Positions 25,941 to 34,546 of a stretch of DNA of 64,000 nucleotides are shown here, one piece after another; the stretch's first letter is position 1, and the number at the start of each line of letters is the position of its first letter. Source of the stretch: Anaerosacchariphilus polymeriproducens (GTDB lineage Bacteria; Bacillota; Clostridia; Lachnospirales; Lachnospiraceae); assembly GCF_003363435.1 (NCBI RefSeq), contig NZ_QRCT01000013.1:62001-126000 (forward strand). The letters are read 5' to 3'. Below the pieces are notes generated by a model, which saw only the letters and a list, made by a program, of their open reading frames with translations, searched no databases and was not told where the DNA came from. The position numbers and the translations under genes were made by a program.

Positions 25941-25985
25941 ATAGAAAGCAATAAAAAGAAAATGAATTATGAACAGGAGGAAACT

Positions 25986-26906
25986 ATGAAACATTTGATG
26001 AGTCCCTTGGATTTTACTGTGGAAGAGCTTGACAAATTACTTGATTTAGCAAATGACATTGAAAAAAATCCTTCCAAATATGCTCATGCCTGTGAAGGTA
26101 AAAAATTAGCAACTACTTTTTATGAACCAAGTACGCGAACTCGTTTGAGTTTTGAGGCTGCAATGTTAAATCTTGGTGGTAATATATTAGGTTTTTCCAA
26201 TGCTGCATCTAGTTCTGCAGCAAAAGGCGAAAGTGTTGCTGACACCATACGGATGATTTCCTGCTATGCAGATATCTGCGCTATGCGTCATCCAAAAGAG
26301 GGGGCTCCTTTAGTAGCGGCTCTGAATTCTTCTATTCCTGTTATTAATGCCGGAGATGGCGGACATCAGCATCCTACTCAGACATTAACAGATTTATTGA
26401 CCATTCGTTCTTTAAAGGGCAGATTAGATAATCTTAAAATTGGCTTATGTGGAGATCTCAAATTCGGTCGTACTGTCCATTCTTTAATCAATGCACTAAT
26501 TCGTTACCCAAACATATCGTTTGTATTAATATCACCTGACGAACTCCAAATACCAAGTTATATCCGAGAGGATATCTTAGGAAAAAACAATATTTCTTTT
26601 GAAGAAGTCGTCCGTTTAGAAGATGCTATTACTGATTTAGATATTCTTTATATGACACGTGTTCAAAGGGAACGTTTTTTTAATGAAGAAGATTACATCC
26701 GAATGAAAGATTTTTATATTTTGGACAAACCAAAAATGAACCTTGCCAAAGAAGACATGCTTGTTCTTCATCCTCTTCCCAGAGTGAACGAAATTTCTGT
26801 TGAAGTAGATAATGACCCTCGCGCTGTCTATTTTGAGCAGGTTCAATATGGTGTTTATGTCAGAATGGCTCTTATACTTACATTATTGGAGGTGCAGGTA
26901 TGTTAA
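25986..26906 (+). CDS. pyrB: Aspartate carbamoyltransferase catalytic subunit
   Basis: A 306-residue enzyme that joins carbamoyl phosphate and aspartate in pyrimidine synthesis. The carbamoyl-phosphate motif [14 protein letters not shown] and the HPTQTLTDL and HPLPRVNEI motifs are complete. I start it at 25986, after AACAGGAGG; an earlier in-frame ATG lies upstream of that ribosome site. It overlaps pyrI by seven bases, so the enzyme is expected to be of the enterobacterial/clostridial regulated type. Confidence 0.97.
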
Positions 26907-27328
26907 ATGTTGGTCTTATTCAGGAAGGTTTTGTTTTGGATCATATCCAAAACGGGAAAAGTATGGATATTTATCATTATTTAGGTCTGGATAAATTAGA
27001 TTGCTGTGTTGCGATTATCAAAAACGCAAAAAGTAATGCGATGGGCAAAAAGGATATTATCAAAGTGGAATGTGATATCCATATGCTTGATTTGGATATC
27101 TTGGGATTCATTGATCACAATATAACAGTAAATATCATCAAAGATTGTAAAATTGTAGAAAAGAAAGCTTTAAAACTACCGTCTCAGGTAATAAATGTCA
27201 TTAAATGTAAAAATCCCCGCTGTATCACTACTATTGAGCAGGAATTGGATCATATATTCTTATTGACAGATTCTGAAAAAGAGGTTTATCGATGTAAATA
27301 TTGCGAAGAGAAATATGGAACTGAATAA
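26900..27328 (+). CDS. pyrI: Aspartate carbamoyltransferase regulatory subunit
   Basis: A 142-residue regulatory chain that binds CTP/ATP and holds the catalytic trimers together. The zinc domain has C-x4-C in CKNPRC and C-x2-C in CKYC. Its start overlaps the end of pyrB, and a GGAGG ribosome site lies inside pyrB. The rest of the pyr pathway is not in the window. Confidence 0.96.
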
Positions 27329-27359: not shown

Positions 27360-27413
27360 AAAGTGTCTACACAACCTCAATTTTCTACACTATTGTAGGA
27401 GCTAGACACTTTG
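27360..27413 (+). terminator. Terminator after pyrBI
   Basis: AAAGTGTCTA pairs with TAGACACTTT around a loop of about 33 bases; A and T runs flank the stem. It ends the pyrBI transcript and could also stop minus-strand transcription coming from uppP. Confidence 0.7.
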
Positions 27414-27672: not shown

Positions 27673-28524
27673 TCAAACTGTCAATTTAATAATATTAGTT
27701 AACACAAGTATTGCAAGTAATGAACCTGCAATAACCCTATATACCGCAAATACTTTCATAGGTTTCTTCTTTAAGTAAGTAATAAACTTTTTAATAACGA
27801 TTAAAGCTATAATAAATGCAACAATAAATCCTATTATTAAAGAAAACCACAAAGTCTGTGTCATTATTGAATAGTCAAATTCTAATAAGTCTTTTGCTGA
27901 TGTTCCTATCATTGCAGGGATAGCAATAAAAAAAGAAAATTCTGCTGCTAATGGTGTTGATAACCCAGCCATCCATCCACCCATAATTGTAGATGCACTT
28001 CTTGACATACCCGGACACAAAGCCAATAACTGAAATACTCCTATCTTAAATGCATGTACAAATGTAATATTATCTATTCTGTCTTCTTTACATTTTTTAT
28101 TACTATATAATCTTTCAATCAATAATAATAACAATCCACCAACTATAAATCCAACGATAACAACCTCTGGCTCAAACATAGACTTTATTTTACTATAAAA
28201 CAGCATACCGACAATACTCATAGGAATAGAAGCTACAATTACATTAATTCCAAATTTAAATCCGTTCTTACCTTCTTTGCCTTTTGTAAAGATAAATATA
28301 AAAAAATCAATTATACTATCTTTAATTTTACTCCAGTATAATACAACTACTGCCATGATAGCTCCAAGCTGAATTACAACTTCATACATCTTAGCAAACG
28401 CTCCCTCAAAACCAATTGCCCATCCAACTAAAATCATGTGACCAGTAGAAGATATAGGAATAAATTCAGTAATGCCTTCTACAATACCAATTATAATCGC
28501 TTTCAATATTAAGATAATATCCAT
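27673..28524 (-). CDS. uppP: Undecaprenyl-diphosphatase UppP/BacA, bacteriocin-island copy
   Basis: A 283-residue polytopic membrane enzyme that dephosphorylates undecaprenyl pyrophosphate for recycling of the cell-wall lipid carrier; overproduction gives bacitracin resistance. The catalytic motif EGITEFIPISSTGH has E16, E20 and H29, and the second motif PGMSRSAST has R175. It lies 77 bases after the HlyD-type gene on the same strand, with an AAAGGAG ribosome site; TATAAT in the gap could also give it a promoter of its own. UppP is the sensitivity determinant for the two-peptide bacteriocins lactococcin G and enterocin 1071, so a locus-borne copy may serve in self-protection (inference). Whether it is the only uppP in the genome is unknown. 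Confidence 0.95.
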   Translation of the reverse strand: MDIILILKAIIIGIVEGITEFIPISSTGHMILVGWAIGFEGAFAKMYEVVIQLGAIMAVVVLYWSKIKDSIIDFFIFIFTKGKEGKNGFKFGINVIVASIPMSIVGMLFYSKIKSMFEPEVVIVGFIVGGLLLLLIERLYSNKKCKEDRIDNITFVHAFKIGVFQLLALCPGMSRSASTIMGGWMAGLSTPLAAEFSFFIAIPAMIGTSAKDLLEFDYSIMTQTLWFSLIIGFIVAFIIALIVIKKFITYLKKKPMKVFAVYRVIAGSLLAILVLTNIIKLTV

Positions 28525-28601: not shown

Positions 28602-29645
28602 CTAATTCAATAAATTAATTTTTTCTAATATATAAAACAAAACCCTTTTTTTTCCTGTTATGACTTTTACTTCACAATTCATACCCACTTTTAATTTCTC
28701 CTCTTTTCCTTTTTTATTATATAGTGAATTATTGTCTAAAGTAGTCTTTGCGATATAATATGAGGAACTTTTTTTATCATTTATTTTAATATCTTTTGAT
28801 ATGTTTTTAATCTTACCCGAAATTAATCCATATTCTGAAACAGGAAACGAATAAAATTCTATTTTAACTTGCATACCCTCTTTTATTTTTCCAATATTTT
28901 TATTATCAATAAATGTATCAATCAAATATTTACTTTTAGGTATAATAGTTAAAGGTTCTTCACCTTCATGGATTTTATTTCCTTCTACAATATCAAATTT
29001 AAAATTTACAGAACCATCTTTTTTAGCAATTACTGTTGATTTTTTAATTTCCTTATTTATTATTGCACATTTTTTTAACAAATCATTTTTTTTCGCCTTA
29101 TATGATTTTAATTCTCCATATATCGTATTAATTTCTGTTAATCTTTCTTTTTCTGAGTTTAATGGATTCGTTTTAATTGTAATTAAATCAAAACGTGATT
29201 TATACTCATCAAAATAGACATTTTTTTGTAAAGACTGAAAATTATTTATATTACCGTTCAATGCGTCTAAATAGGCATTTAATATTAATAACCTATCTTC
29301 TACATCACTAAGATTTTTGCTATAATCTTTTAATTCAGTAGCTAATTCATCATGATTAATTACATATATTATATCTCCTTTTTTTACTTCATCTCCATCA
29401 TTTACTTTTACCTTTTCAATTTGTCCTTCAATTTCATTTGTTATAGTTAAAACTTTTTCTGATGTCTTTAATATTCCATTATATTTTATGACAATGTCAA
29501 TTTTACATAAATAAGCCCATATTAAAAATGAAATTATTATAGATAATACTAAATAAATAAATAATACAAAAAATGGATGGGGTCTAGATTCATAAACCTC
29601 TTTGCTATTAGACATGCCATTCATATCCATAAGTAATGGTTTCAT
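28602..29645 (-). CDS. HlyD-family bacteriocin export accessory protein
   Basis: A 347-residue membrane-fusion-type protein. It has a short cytosolic N terminus, one membrane helix at about 25-47, a biotinyl-lipoyl-like segment (EGQIEKVKVNDGDEVKKGD), a coiled-coil region (about 110-195) and a second lipoyl half plus beta-barrel (from about 200). Such proteins (BlpB, LcnD, ComB type) work with peptidase-containing ABC exporters to move double-glycine peptides across the membrane. Its ATG overlaps the last base of the exporter stop region, so the two genes are translationally coupled. The sequence is AT-rich. Confidence 0.92.
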   Translation of the reverse strand: MKPLLMDMNGMSNSKEVYESRPHPFFVLFIYLVLSIIISFLIWAYLCKIDIVIKYNGILKTSEKVLTITNEIEGQIEKVKVNDGDEVKKGDIIYVINHDELATELKDYSKNLSDVEDRLLILNAYLDALNGNINNFQSLQKNVYFDEYKSRFDLITIKTNPLNSEKERLTEINTIYGELKSYKAKKNDLLKKCAIINKEIKKSTVIAKKDGSVNFKFDIVEGNKIHEGEEPLTIIPKSKYLIDTFIDNKNIGKIKEGMQVKIEFYSFPVSEYGLISGKIKNISKDIKINDKKSSSYYIAKTTLDNNSLYNKKGKEEKLKVGMNCEVKVITGKKRVLFYILEKINLLN

Positions 29646-31843
29646 TATTCTTCCCCGCTTTCTAATGTCTGTTGTTTTACAAGCTCTGCATATTCCCCAC
29701 TTAATTTTATTAATTCTATATGAGATCCTTCTTCAATTATTTTACCTTTATCCATAACAAAAATTTTATCACATTTTTTAATTGTACTTAATCTGTGTGC
29801 TATAAATATTACTGTTGTATTTATGCATAATTTATGAATTGTCTCATCTATCATTCTTTCAGTAATGGCATCTAAATTACTTGTAGCTTCATCTAAAATT
29901 AATATATCCGGTTTTTTTAACATTGCTCTTGCTATAGATAATCTCTGTCTTTGTCCTCCAGATATATTTGCACCATTTTCTTCAAGATTAGTATTATATC
30001 TTAAAGGGAGTTCATTAATAAAATCATGTGCATGTGCTAATTTAGAAGCTTCTATAGCATCTTCTATTGATGTATTAACCATGCCAAAAGATAGATTTTC
30101 TAATATACTTCCACTAAATAAAAATGTTTCTTGTGAAATATATGCAATTTTATCTCTCAAAATTTCGATTTGAATATCGTCAATTTTATTATCATTTAAT
30201 AAAATATCTCCAGATTCAGTTTTATATAAATATAATAATAATTTAAAAAGAGTTGATTTTCCAGATCCACTCTCACCAACAAAAGCTACTTTTTGTCCAC
30301 ATTTAATTTTTAAGTTAATATTTTCTAACACTAACTTTCTAGTCCCATAGCGGAAATTCACATTCTTAAATTCAATATCACCTAATAAATTCTTTGGTCT
30401 TATTTTTTTTTCTTCTATTTTTGTTTTTTCAATTTCTAAATCTAAAATTTCTCCCAAACGATTAGCCGCTACTATAGCTGTCTGCATTTTTGGTTGTAGG
30501 TTAATTAAATTTTTTACGGGTTCTAAAAAATAAATCAGTAAAGAATTAAATACTACTAATTGACCTATTGTAATATTTCCATGAATAACATTAAAACTAC
30601 CAACCCATAATATAATTATTCCTCCAATAACTTCTACTATAGTTTTTAGTGCATCTTGTAAATTTTCGATACAATATAATTTAAAAACACTTTTAAGAAG
30701 TTTAACAAATTTAATTTCAGTTTTTAGATTTGCATTTCTTTCTGCATTATAAGTTTTTATCATCTGTATTCCATGTAATGATTCCACTAAAAAAGCCGTT
30801 AACTTTGCATTATTTTCCATTTGATTACGATTTAAACGATGATATGACTTATTAAATGACCATACTATTAATAAATACAATCCAAGCATTATAATTGTTA
30901 CAAAAAACATTGCAGAATTTTGCCTAAATAATATAATACCGCCAATAATTGCCATTATCGTATCTATCATTAGTGTTAATACCGCCCCTGAAATAGCATC
31001 TCTCACTTTGCCAGCATCCTGAAATCTAGATATTATTTCTCCTACTTTTCTTGTACCAAAAAAATTCATCGGGAGATTAATTACATGTTTATAATATCCA
31101 AACAATAATGCTATATCAATCTTTTGGCTTAAATATAATAATAGATGTGAACGAAAAGCGGATAATAATACTTTAAAAATACTTAAAATTATTATCCCTA
31201 TAGAAAGCACCATTAACGTCTCACTCAAATTGTTTGGAAGTATATAATCTATTAATGCTTGAAAATAAAATGCTCCTAAAATACCTAAAAATGTATATAT
31301 CAAAGATGCAATAAATATATGTATTAATATTTTTTTATGAGGTATTAATAAAGATAAAAAACTTTTAAATAAACCTTTTGTCTTATCACCAGTTTTAAAT
31401 TTCATTGTTGGTGTCATAAAAATAATAACTCCAGTCCATCGATATTTAGAATTTTCACTTTCTTTAACGTTTATCCCAAAAAACTGTTCTGGTTTAAGAG
31501 TAATTAATCCTTCTGCTGGGTCTGCTATAATAATTTTTTTCCTTGTAATTTTATGTATAACAATATAATGAAATAAATTGCTATCTATTACAACATGAGC
31601 AATACACGGTAATGGAAAATCAGAAAAAAAAGCTTCCTTATCTCCTTTCATACCTTTTGCACTAAAACCTATTTGTTCAGCCGCTTTAATAATACCATAT
31701 ACATTTGTTCCTTGTTTATCAGTACCTGCATATTCTCTTATTTTTGAAATAGGTGTTCTTAATCCATATTGTTTTGAAATAGTTGCAAGACAAGCTGCAC
31801 CACAATCAGTTGTGTCTTGTTGTTTTATACATGAGTATTTCAT
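29645..31843 (-). CDS. C39-peptidase-containing ABC exporter (PCAT) for double-glycine peptides
   Basis: A 732-residue exporter that cuts the leader after a Gly-Gly pair and exports the peptide. The N-terminal C39 protease domain (1 to about 140) has the triad C14 (TTDCGAACLA), H92 (LFHYIVIH) and D108 (IIADPAEG). A six-helix membrane domain spans about 165-445. The ATPase domain has Walker A GESGSGKST, the Q-loop, signature ISGGQRQRLS and Walker B ILILDEATSN. All catalytic residues are intact. It is followed by the HlyD partner and preceded by the two peptide genes, with a terminator between. It thus matches the class II bacteriocin export machinery (LagD/BlpA/ComA type). Confidence 0.95.
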   Translation of the reverse strand: MKYSCIKQQDTTDCGAACLATISKQYGLRTPISKIREYAGTDKQGTNVYGIIKAAEQIGFSAKGMKGDKEAFFSDFPLPCIAHVVIDSNLFHYIVIHKITRKKIIIADPAEGLITLKPEQFFGINVKESENSKYRWTGVIIFMTPTMKFKTGDKTKGLFKSFLSLLIPHKKILIHIFIASLIYTFLGILGAFYFQALIDYILPNNLSETLMVLSIGIIILSIFKVLLSAFRSHLLLYLSQKIDIALLFGYYKHVINLPMNFFGTRKVGEIISRFQDAGKVRDAISGAVLTLMIDTIMAIIGGIILFRQNSAMFFVTIIMLGLYLLIVWSFNKSYHRLNRNQMENNAKLTAFLVESLHGIQMIKTYNAERNANLKTEIKFVKLLKSVFKLYCIENLQDALKTIVEVIGGIIILWVGSFNVIHGNITIGQLVVFNSLLIYFLEPVKNLINLQPKMQTAIVAANRLGEILDLEIEKTKIEEKKIRPKNLLGDIEFKNVNFRYGTRKLVLENINLKIKCGQKVAFVGESGSGKSTLFKLLLYLYKTESGDILLNDNKIDDIQIEILRDKIAYISQETFLFSGSILENLSFGMVNTSIEDAIEASKLAHAHDFINELPLRYNTNLEENGANISGGQRQRLSIARAMLKKPDILILDEATSNLDAITERMIDETIHKLCINTTVIFIAHRLSTIKKCDKIFVMDKGKIIEEGSHIELIKLSGEYAELVKQQTLESGEE

Positions 31844-32073: not shown

Positions 32074-32250
32074 CTATTTATTATGTTTTTTGTGCCATCT
32101 TTCCATTTGTCCAGCTGTAGTTGAAGCATCAAGTCCTTTACATATATAATATAATCCTTTTCCTACAACATTTCCAATATCATTAAACGCACTACCTCCA
32201 TTAATACTTCTACTTTCATTAATTGTTAACTCGCAAAATTTATTTAACAT
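32074..32250 (-). CDS. Double-glycine class II bacteriocin precursor, peptide B
   Basis: A 58-residue precursor. The leader MLNKFCELTINESRSINGG matches the double-glycine leader pattern (L-x-x-x-E-x-x-x-I-x-G-G) and predicts cleavage after residue 19. The 39-residue mature part begins SAFNDIGNVVGKGLYY, contains a GxxxG motif (GNVVG), AxxxA and SxxxG motifs in DASTTAG, and ends in a cationic tail (WHKKHNK). Only one cysteine is in the mature part, so no disulphide is possible within it. A ribosome site AAAGGAAG precedes the ATG. No modification enzymes are nearby, so an unmodified peptide is expected. It lies 24 bases after the CPBP-type gene. Confidence 0.88.
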   Translation of the reverse strand: MLNKFCELTINESRSINGGSAFNDIGNVVGKGLYYICKGLDASTTAGQMERWHKKHNK

Positions 32251-32274: not shown

Positions 32275-32736
32275 TTATTTAAATATATTTGTTATATATG
32301 ATATACAATTATATATTGAATGTATTAAAAATAATATTTTGTAAGATGTAAATCTTTTGTTCGGATAAAACATATATGAAAAAATATATATATATCCTAT
32401 ACCACTTGCTATCAACATATAAGATATAGAATGATAATGTAACGCACCAAATATAATAGAAATTAGAACCGCTACAATATAATTTCGTTTTATAATTATT
32501 TTTGCAATCTTAACTAAATAAACTAATAAAATCGTTTCAATACCTGGTCCAATAAATGTTATTAAAATAAACATAAATATTGAAAACGAATTATAATCTT
32601 TTATATATATTTCATCAGTTATATTAATACCAAATAAACCAGCAATATATATAAATAAATAATTAAATATAAAACATATTAATACTGATAACAAAATAAA
32701 TTTTACATCACTAATTTCTCTTACTCTTTTAAACAT
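32275..32736 (-). CDS. CPBP-like intramembrane protein, candidate bacteriocin immunity protein
   Basis: A 153-residue protein with about four to five membrane segments. It resembles the CPBP (Abi) family of intramembrane proteases, members of which provide immunity in plantaricin and sakacin-type class IIb loci. Motif 2 is present as F96-x3-H100 and motif 3 as H139-x3-N143, but motif 1 has a single glutamate (E67 in GPGIETILL) and lacks the usual second Glu and Arg. It may be a weak or inactive protease. I use the ATG at 32736; an upstream TTG overlapping the previous stop is too close to the ribosome site. It sits between the two peptide genes, the usual place for an immunity gene. Confidence 0.8.
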   Translation of the reverse strand: MFKRVREISDVKFILLSVLICFIFNYLFIYIAGLFGINITDEIYIKDYNSFSIFMFILITFIGPGIETILLVYLVKIAKIIIKRNYIVAVLISIIFGALHYHSISYMLIASGIGYIYIFSYMFYPNKRFTSYKILFLIHSIYNCISYITNIFK

Positions 32737-32744
32737 TCTATATA

Positions 32745-32906
32745 TCAATCACCCCAATTATCTTTATTCCCAGCCTCTACGAAGCCATGACCAACACCTT
32801 TTATAAAATTATAAGCTGGATCTATTAAAGATATTACCGTTTCCCATTTCCCTCCACCTTCGATTGTATACATTTCCTCTTCTGATAAAAACTCAAAATT
32901 ATTCAT
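32745..32906 (-). CDS. Double-glycine class II bacteriocin precursor, peptide A
   Basis: A 53-residue precursor and the first gene of the island operon. The leader MNNFEFLSEEEMYTIEGG is an excellent match to bacteriocin double-glycine leaders (L-S-x-E-E-x-x-x-I-x-G-G); cleavage is predicted after residue 18. The 35-residue mature part begins GKWETVISLIDPAYNF and has a GxxxG motif (GVGHG) in a short helix-like segment, then an acidic C terminus with WGD. No cysteine is present. A consensus AGGAGG ribosome site lies 8-9 bases before the ATG. Together with peptide B it forms a likely class IIb pair; synergy is inferred, not shown. Confidence 0.88.
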   Translation of the reverse strand: MNNFEFLSEEEMYTIEGGGKWETVISLIDPAYNFIKGVGHGFVEAGNKDNWGD

Positions 32907-32939: not shown

Positions 32940-32991
32940 TTCTTAACGTTAAGAACTTAGATATTATATAACACATTTTAATAAATGTAAA
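32940..32991 (-). promoter_or_regulatory. Bacteriocin-operon promoter with 16-bp palindromic operator
   Basis: On the minus strand TTTACA, a 17-base spacer and perfect TATAAT are visible (-35 at 32986-32991, -10 at 32963-32968). Seven bases downstream the perfect palindrome TTCTTAACGTTAAGAA (32940-32955) covers the predicted transcription start. A repressor bound there would block the promoter. No regulator gene is found in the island, so the binding protein must be encoded elsewhere. Confidence 0.75.
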
Positions 32992-33131: not shown

Positions 33132-34179
33132 GGCTCTATAATAAATGTTGGGGTGTAAACTTACACTTCCAACATTTTTATTATTTTTGTAATAAAATAT
33201 TACCTTTTCAGTTAAAAGATTGTTATTTAATTCTAAATAAACTTCGATATCACTGTTCATGCGGCAAAAGATTTTTTGAAAGTTATTCTCTTTCTTTCAA
33301 GATATCAACAACGGACAAGGCGACTTACACACGCCATTGCTAATGAGCTAAGAGATACTGTAAGCATCAAGCATGTATCTAACAAACTTAACATTTCAGC
33401 CTCTACTGTAACAAGGATTCTGGATACTTTAAATTATGAACTTCCAACATTAAAGAAAGCGATTGCAATTGATGAGTTTAAAGTGAATGCCAATACTGGA
33501 AAATACCAATATATACTTGTTGATTCTCTTAAATGTAAGGTGTTAGACATTTTTCCAGACAGTACACAGTCCCACTTAACTTCTTATTTTAGAACGATTC
33601 CCAAAAAAGAACGTAATCATATGACACCAACACTTAGGAAATACTACAAAAGAAGCAAAACTCTAATACACAAAAGATACGATTCTTTAAAACAAGAAGA
33701 TAAGAAGGCCTGCGACATTATGCTTCTTTACAATGATGAATTACGTAAAGCTCATTACTTAAAAGAATGGTTTTATAAAATTTGTCAGGAAACAAAATAC
33801 TCATTCCAACGTGAACAGTTCTTGAAATGGCTTGCAAATGCAGAAACATGTGGAATGAAAGACTTTGAAGATGTAGCAGCTACCTATAGACGTTTCTCAA
33901 AAGGTATTTTGAGTGCTTTTAAATATGGGATTACAAATGATCCAACTGAAGGTTTTAATAATAAAATCAAAGTAATGAAACGTACATCTTATGGAATTAG
34001 GAATTTTGAAAGATTTAGAACAAGAATATTACATTGTACTAATTAATAAAAAGCGAACTAACAAAGAGGATTATTTGCTAGTCTAAATATCCTTTCAATA
34101 GATGATAATATTAAAATTCCCTAACATCAGTAGAGGGGCGTGATTCAAAGAATCACACCCCAACTATTGACACAGAGCC
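33132..34179 (+). mobile_element. Decayed ISL3-family insertion sequence
   Basis: The 1048-base element has recognisable imperfect terminal inverted repeats. The left end begins GGCTCTATAATAAATGTTGG and the right end, read inward, begins GGCTCTGTGTCAATAGTTGG; both continue with GGTGT. Between them is a frameshifted and internally deleted transposase. Direct repeats of 8 bases, as ISL3 elements make, are not present at the ends, so the element has rearranged or is old. It flanks the promoter side of the bacteriocin island. Confidence 0.85.
33212..34046 (+). pseudogene. ISL3-family transposase, frameshifted and internally deleted
   Basis: Residual zinc-finger-like sequence (RYHCSCGKRFFES) is in one frame; the reading then continues in another as SRYQQRTRRLTHAIANELRD, showing a frameshift near 33275-33300. 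The DDE domain starts normally with IDEFKVN, but FRTIPKKERNHM runs straight into TPTLRKYYKRSK. The part that normally lies between, which carries the second catalytic Asp and the DRFHV-type motif, is missing. The C-terminal DPTEGFNNKIKVMKR with the catalytic Glu is present. The full-length protein in the family is about 400 residues. It should be inactive. Confidence 0.88.
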
Positions 34180-34201
34180 TTTTTATATTTAACTATAAAA
34201 T

Positions 34202-34543
34202 AAGCAAGACGATAAGCCGGGTTATGTCGTGAGTGATCATCTATCTAGGATGATTGTCACCAATCACCTCAAGCAACCTACCTAAAGCTAGCGGGCCACG
34301 TTATCGCTTTTATTCGGTTTTGCTTCGAATGGGGTTTACATGTGCCCTCCTTGTTACCAAGAAGGCGGTAGGCTCTTACTCTACCCTTCCACCCTTACCA
34401 GTAAAATACTGGCGGTATATTTCTGTTGCACTGGCCTTGGAGTCACCTCCACCGGACGTTATCCGGCATCCTGCCCTATGAAGCCCGGACTTTCCTCACC
34501 TACGGTCTTTCGACACTTGTAGCTGCGATCACTTATCTTACTT
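34202..34543 (-). ncRNA. rnpB: RNase P RNA
   Basis: The catalytic RNA of RNase P. On the minus strand the conserved GAGGAAAGTCCGGGCTTC near the 5' end and ACATAACCCGGCTTATCG near the 3' end are unmistakable, with GGTAACAAGGAGGGC and CAGTGCAACAGAAATATACC in between. The ends are placed by a 9-pair P1 helix (AAGTAAGAT with GTCTTGCTT), so they are good to a few bases. It lies between the ISL3 remnant and the nucleoside-kinase gene. Confidence 0.96.
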
Positions 34544-34546
34544 AGC

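Follow-up and report, generated by a model that had tools for sequence, protein, structure and literature searches.

The receptor of the lactococcin G/enterocin 1071 family of bacteriocins has been shown to be UppP/BacA (PMC12765074). Why does a genomic island of Anaerosacchariphilus polymeriproducens that carries two peptides of this family also carry a uppP gene of its own? We addressed this question in a 64,000-nt stretch of the genome, called the window throughout. A sequence-only reading of the window had proposed that a second, altered copy of the target protects the producer, either (i) by supplying a resistant enzyme or (ii) by acting as a decoy.

A two-peptide bacteriocin island between pyrBI and rnpB

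The minus-strand gene order is beta peptide, 157-aa membrane protein, alpha peptide, C39 ABC exporter, HlyD-type protein and, as the last gene, uppP (Table 1). Both peptide precursors scored well above the NCBIfam cut-off of 37 bits for their families (beta, 65.1 bits against NF038034; alpha, 64.3 bits against NF038035), with supporting Pfam matches (PF11632, E=1.8e-11; PF08129, E=1.4e-6). Alpha has the double-glycine leader SINGG and the GxxxG motif GNVVG; beta has IEGGG and GVGHG, and was aligned with homologues from pEF1071 and LR962290. Having passed the curated cut-offs, the window peptides are members of the lactococcin G/enterocin 1071 (class IIb) family, with receptor use predicted. 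The earlier view of a two-peptide bacteriocin from a UppP-targeting family is borne out, and the family assignment by curated profiles is new. Peptides of this type above cut-off were found only in the window's genome among 299 family, 391 class and 392 order genomes, and in 4 of 398 genomes of a phylum sample; they are very rare in the sampled genomes. The window exporter is 43% identical to the LR962290 exporter and 67% identical to that of a sister locus in the host family (L047; G557:C62:36000-55000), which encodes different double-glycine peptides and CPBP-like proteins and has no uppP. Promoter-like matches of the same grade as the candidate upstream of beta occur in the region at chance level.

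Table 1. Features of the bacteriocin island and its flanks (window positions).
Feature	Position	Strand	Basis or remark
pyrB + pyrI, flank	25962..27328	+	PF01948/PF02748
Inverted repeat between pyrI and uppP	27360..27412	.	AAAGTGTCTA/TAGACACTTT; fold -21.3 kcal/mol for the stretch
Island UppP/BacA	27673-28524	-	283 aa, complete ORF; PF02673, TIGR00753
HlyD-type accessory protein of the exporter	28602..29645	-	PF13437, PF16576
C39-peptidase ABC exporter (leader cleavage and export)	29645..31843	-	TIGR01193 (700.7 bits), PF03412, PF00664, PF00005
Alpha peptide precursor, lactococcin G-alpha/enterocin 1071A family	32074..32250	-	NF038035, PF08129
157-aa membrane protein, degenerate Rce1/Abi (CPBP)-like	32275..32748	-	TTG start at 32748; ATG at 32736
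Beta peptide precursor, lactococcin G-beta/enterocin 1071B family	32745..32906	-	NF038034, PF11632
Candidate promoter upstream of beta	32963..32991	-	TTTACA-17-TATAAT, 11/12 consensus match
Shortened ISL3-type element, rnpB edge of island	33132..34179	+	PF01610, PF13542
rnpB (RNase P RNA), flank	34197..34544	-	RF00010, 299.6 bits

We compared the site with the same interval in relatives. The placement of pyrB and pyrI beside rnpB and a kinase gene is conserved in G314, G406 and, for pyrI only, G405. In G314 and G405, rnpB and the same kinase gene lie about 0.5 kb past pyrI in convergent orientation, and the interval contains neither uppP nor bacteriocin genes; in G406 the interval measures 3.4 kb and holds unrelated genes. 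The window interval measures 7.2 kb. GC content falls to 23-27% across 28 to 33 kb, compared with about 34% in the surroundings, and the ISL3-type element at the rnpB edge has 34-nt terminal inverted repeats (33123-33156/34155-34188) and a transposase ORF (33276-34046) that is apparently incomplete at its N-terminus. uppP belongs to a horizontally acquired bacteriocin island inserted between pyrBI and rnpB. The sequence-only reading would have been abandoned had uppP occupied the same place in relatives without the bacteriocin genes; the relatives' site lacks uppP as well. The GC3 of uppP (0.215) exceeds that of the exporter and HlyD genes (0.13-0.14), so the island may be composite, with uppP having joined separately. 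The inverted repeat downstream of uppP is probably a terminator shared with the convergent pyrI.

The island UppP is of Clostridium type

Profiles and coordinates agree with the initial description of a complete UppP that retains its catalytic residues and lies 77 bases past the HlyD-type gene on the bacteriocin strand. The protein matches PF02673 with E=1.8e-76 over 256 of 257 positions and lies above the cut-off in both TIGR00753 and NF001390. Its AF2 model (pLDDT 88; alignment of 22 sequences) has E. coli BacA (5oon) as its best PDB match, with a TM score of 0.83 and 41% identity. Catalytic E20, S26 and R175 (E20, S26 and R172 in E. faecalis BacA) are present, as are all residues invariant across 21 aligned relatives, in an intact ORF. 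By family, by BacA fold and by the catalytic E, S and R, the gene encodes a UppP/BacA undecaprenyl-diphosphate phosphatase with predicted enzyme activity. Within the 77-base gap there is an RBS-like AAAGGAG and no predicted terminator.

A sole uppP in the genome would have spoken against a protective second copy, but two further UppP-family genes are present. The closer of the two (G000:C34:3212-4033), 47% identical to the island copy, is the housekeeping-type gene expected elsewhere in the genome; we refer to it as the host copy. The third UppP-like protein (G000:C34:244785-245636; L045 8759-9631) is divergent, with 33% identity to the island copy; N replaces its catalytic S26, and its gene adjoins an ftsK-looking gene.

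The closest named relatives of the island UppP are Clostridium UppPs (73-76% identity). In our sample of 299 family genomes, the nearest UppP reaches 48% (G452) and adjoins a signal-peptidase-looking gene, with bacteriocin genes not among its neighbours. In the tree, the island copy falls in a clade of 15 rows that otherwise comprises Clostridiaceae and one Tissierella (SH-aLRT 100) and is sister to Inconstantimicrobium porci (93); the host copy falls within its own family's clade, far away. Tree and identity values establish, at the level of sequence, a foreign, Clostridium-type origin for the island UppP. The tree and the 47% identity rule out a duplicate of the host copy.

The nearest relatives share a five-gene layout of OmpR-type regulator, sensor kinase, uppP, ABC ATPase and FtsX-type permease. 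By gene content this is the BceRS-BceAB type, a layout of antimicrobial-peptide detoxification or resistance, which links the island UppP lineage to peptide resistance. UppPs of such modules in Clostridium and C. difficile (L053-L064, L070) are 66-76% identical to the island's and have nearly the same residue pattern, but the modules have a kinase, regulator, ATPase and FtsX permease, none of which the island has. We considered whether uppP is part of a module remnant at this site, and rejected this, as neither a partner gene nor a remnant of one lies beside uppP in the window. Across 80 Clostridium uppP loci, an ATPase directly follows uppP in 16, and no locus has a C39 exporter or the island peptides nearby (flanks up to 10 kb). 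The bacteriocin neighbourhood is thus peculiar to this island.

The island UppP lacks the mapped docking charges

A 2025 study established E. faecalis BacA as the enterocin C receptor: it is required in cells and suffices in liposomes (PMC12765074). EntC1, the alpha homologue, docks in the BacA catalytic cavity and alone inhibits the enzyme; the mapped contact charges of BacA are E47, D106, D107, D110, K209 and K212 (PMC12765074). K209A weakened binding, and K209A/D106A/D110A abolished it, with 54% survival; E. coli BacA was not inhibited (PMC12765074). Docking does not always kill: lactococcin G binds E. faecalis BacA and does not kill E. faecalis (PMC12765074).

We transferred the E. faecalis numbering by way of the host copy, rather than from the E. 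faecalis BacA sequence itself; E20, S26, E47, D106 and D107 coincide in the two, and R173, K210 and K213 of the host copy are offset by +1. The host copy matches five of the six mapped charges, in line with 29 UppPs of the family, which keep two to six (median, five of six). The island copy keeps none, having K45, Y110, S111, K114, D212 and E215 instead, with the sign reversed at the positions of E47, D110, K209 and K212. E. coli BacA keeps two of six. BceAB-linked Clostridium UppPs keep zero to two, and it may be a general trait of UppPs linked to peptide resistance that they do not serve as receptors. C. simiarum (L053 and L123) and C. yunnanense (L056 and L132) each carry both UppP types: the second copies L123 and L132 keep D106, D107, D110, K209 and K212, and the BceAB-linked L053 and L056 have lost the docking charges.

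On the peptide side, E31 of mature alpha occupies the position of EntC1 D32, the partner of K209, and keeps the acid. By this alignment, E31 would face a lysine (K210) in the host copy and an acid (D212) in the island copy. Alpha has T in place of EntC1 D27, and beta ends in NWGD, without the C-terminal K33/N34. Docking of the window peptides may accordingly differ from that of enterocin C, and not all of its contacts need apply. From the residue pattern, the bacteriocin probably cannot dock onto the island isozyme. Because docking does not always mean killing, this predicted failure to dock is the firmer half of the argument.

The proposal of an altered copy acting as a resistant enzyme stands in one part: the island UppP has none of the six docking charges, as opposed to five in the host copy. 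The part that does not stand is alteration for immunity. By comparison with the BceAB-linked Clostridium UppPs the pattern is ancestral, inherited from Clostridium, and amounts to a pre-adaptation at most.

A candidate immunity protein lies between the peptide genes

The gene between beta and alpha encodes a 157-aa membrane protein that matches PF02517 with E=5.5e-4 and 20.6 bits, slightly below the cut-off of 22.4. A homologue in G1087 is 32% identical over 154 aa (E=4e-10). There, two membrane proteins of 158-160 aa are encoded in tandem after two double-glycine peptides (L187 11380-12360); one is the homologue, and together they are a candidate immunity pair. We found no significant similarity between EntI and the 157-aa protein, which is thus not recognizable as LagC/EntI-type immunity, and its single-sequence model (pLDDT 55) was too poor to use. 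Abi-type proteins are immunity proteins of several class II bacteriocins (Kjos 2010, as cited in PMC8538875). Given the weak Rce1/Abi match, the homologue beside double-glycine peptides and the known Abi-type immunity proteins, the 157-aa protein is most likely the dedicated, classical immunity protein of the island.

Comparison with related loci and known systems

The loci of lactococcin G, lactococcin Q, enterocin 1071 and enterocin C resemble the island in their two homologous double-glycine peptides, C39 exporter and HlyD-type protein, and the receptor of the family is UppP/BacA. They differ in immunity, which is of the LagC/EntI type in the known loci, as opposed to the Rce1/Abi-like protein here. 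They differ also in that the island has uppP after the HlyD gene; pEF1071 and LR962290, both E. faecalis plasmids, do not. We read the stretch around eight related two-peptide loci (pEF1071, LR962290, G557, G1179 twice, G1203, G1357 and G1087) and found uppP in none, contrary to the idea that homologous bacteriocin islands would carry it too; G1357 is cut by a contig end, and several of the eight are remote or below the family cut-off. Alpha and beta scans of 299 family, 391 class, 392 order and 398 phylum genomes gave no second locus that pairs lactococcin G-type peptides with uppP, and none was confirmed in a contig scan with a beta alignment, in plasmid tblastn or in viral contigs. The pairing was seen once and, on this evidence, does not recur. 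A literature search, which covered few subscription journals, found no report of a class IIb locus that carries a uppP of its own, as the sequence-only reading had stated.

In some loci, truncated copies of a bacteriocin exporter, reduced to the N-terminal C39-peptidase part (about 36-100 aa), are interspersed with double-glycine peptide genes: five in L183 (1297-10728; G1357:C3), three in L188 and one in L184 (12470-12679).

Enterococcal bcrABD is similar to the island in having an extra, mobile UppP (BcrD, on plasmids) tied to peptide-antibiotic resistance. By lineage, however, BcrD belongs with the host copy (64% identity, against 39% for the island copy), and its gene accompanies a bacitracin ABC transporter instead of bacteriocin genes.

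A resistant gyrB beside the novobiocin genes is an example of a resistant-target copy in an antibiotic gene cluster. The logic here would be the same, in that the producer's cluster supplies an isozyme of the target that the drug does not affect, and the island presents both elements: a second copy elsewhere in the genome, predicted to be of the sensitive type, and a cluster copy that differs from it at the contact residues. The difference is that the target here is a receptor for pore formation, so that an insensitive copy would not be dominant. To our knowledge, a resistant-target copy has not been described for a class II bacteriocin.

Self-protection and its alternatives

Self-protection by the island uppP is plausible on this pattern. 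Its position in the island, on the same strand and 77 bases downstream of the HlyD gene, with an RBS and no terminator between them, we count in favour of a bypass role. Loss and reversal of the charges, together with the abolished binding of a triple mutant at comparable positions, supports a resistant enzyme over a decoy. Lethal permeabilization is receptor-mediated, and a cell that keeps a docking-type host copy should therefore gain no protection from an insensitive second copy alone. We tentatively propose, at a little under an even chance, that the island UppP is an auxiliary resistant-target (bypass) immunity gene that is insufficient on its own. The proposal has three steps: (i) alpha, like EntC1, would enter and block the cavity of a docking-type UppP such as the host copy; (ii) the Rce1/Abi-like protein would prevent the lethal two-peptide membrane lesion; and (iii) the island UppP would sustain the recycling of undecaprenyl phosphate at times when the host enzyme is occupied or down-regulated. 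Against it are the objections that the host copy should still sensitize the cell, that a conventional immunity candidate is present, that the related loci examined lack uppP and that the residue pattern is inherited from Clostridium.

The main rival, unlikely in our estimate though a serious contender, is that uppP is a BcrD/BacA-type gene for resistance to bacitracin or other peptides, taken from a Clostridium BceRS-uppP-BceAB module and independent of the island peptides. UppP/BcrD is a known determinant of bacitracin resistance (PMC3435297). Such an origin fits the closest relatives in BceAB-type modules, the GC3 difference from the exporter genes and the lack of uppP in other two-peptide loci. 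However, no other module gene or remnant lies in the window, and by a striking coincidence the passenger would be the receptor of exactly this bacteriocin family, when a genome presumably holds about 1-2 UppPs among about 3000 genes.

It is improbable that uppP is chance cargo, an unrelated gene taken up by mobile DNA with no protective role. The single occurrence of the pairing, the IS remnant at the island edge and the other UppPs in the genome would suit such an accident. The ORF is nonetheless intact, with every residue invariant in the 21 relatives present. Its placement suggests an operon, its product is of the non-docking type, and UppP is the known receptor for the bacteriocin encoded next to it.

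Two explanations seem very improbable to us. One is that the Rce1/Abi-like protein is the whole of immunity, the bacteriocin ignoring the housekeeping UppP and the island UppP only boosting the undecaprenyl-phosphate supply. The service of Abi-type proteins to several class II bacteriocins (again Kjos 2010, as cited in PMC8538875) and the G1087 homologue beside double-glycine peptides favour it, but the host copy keeps its docking charges (five of six) and alpha keeps the acid at the K209-partner position (E31). The other, with equally little to recommend it, is the decoy that the sequence-only reading had offered, a sponge that binds the peptides and titrates them off the host receptor: although the island UppP retains S26 and R175, the catalytic residues that EntC1 contacts, we reject the decoy because the charges of the docking rim are reversed. 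With all six rim charges lost, four of them reversed, the predicted binding surface is absent; binding is abolished in a comparable triple mutant, and E. coli BacA escapes inhibition. Moreover, it is binding to BacA that nucleates the membrane lesion, and a decoy that bound the peptides would therefore be harmful.

Returning to the bypass reading, the island may, with confidence clearly short of even, be the first class II bacteriocin locus with an insensitive isozyme of its own receptor, one that would stand in for a host UppP blocked by the producer's own alpha peptide and work alongside an Rce1/Abi-like immunity protein. This one producer naturally has two UppPs that differ in whether they carry the mapped docking charges, and the enterocin C docking model can be tested directly on them. 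If the reading is true, the logic of a resistant target in the cluster would extend to class II bacteriocins, and bacteriocin genome mining could be guided by the target, through receptor paralogues beside double-glycine peptides.
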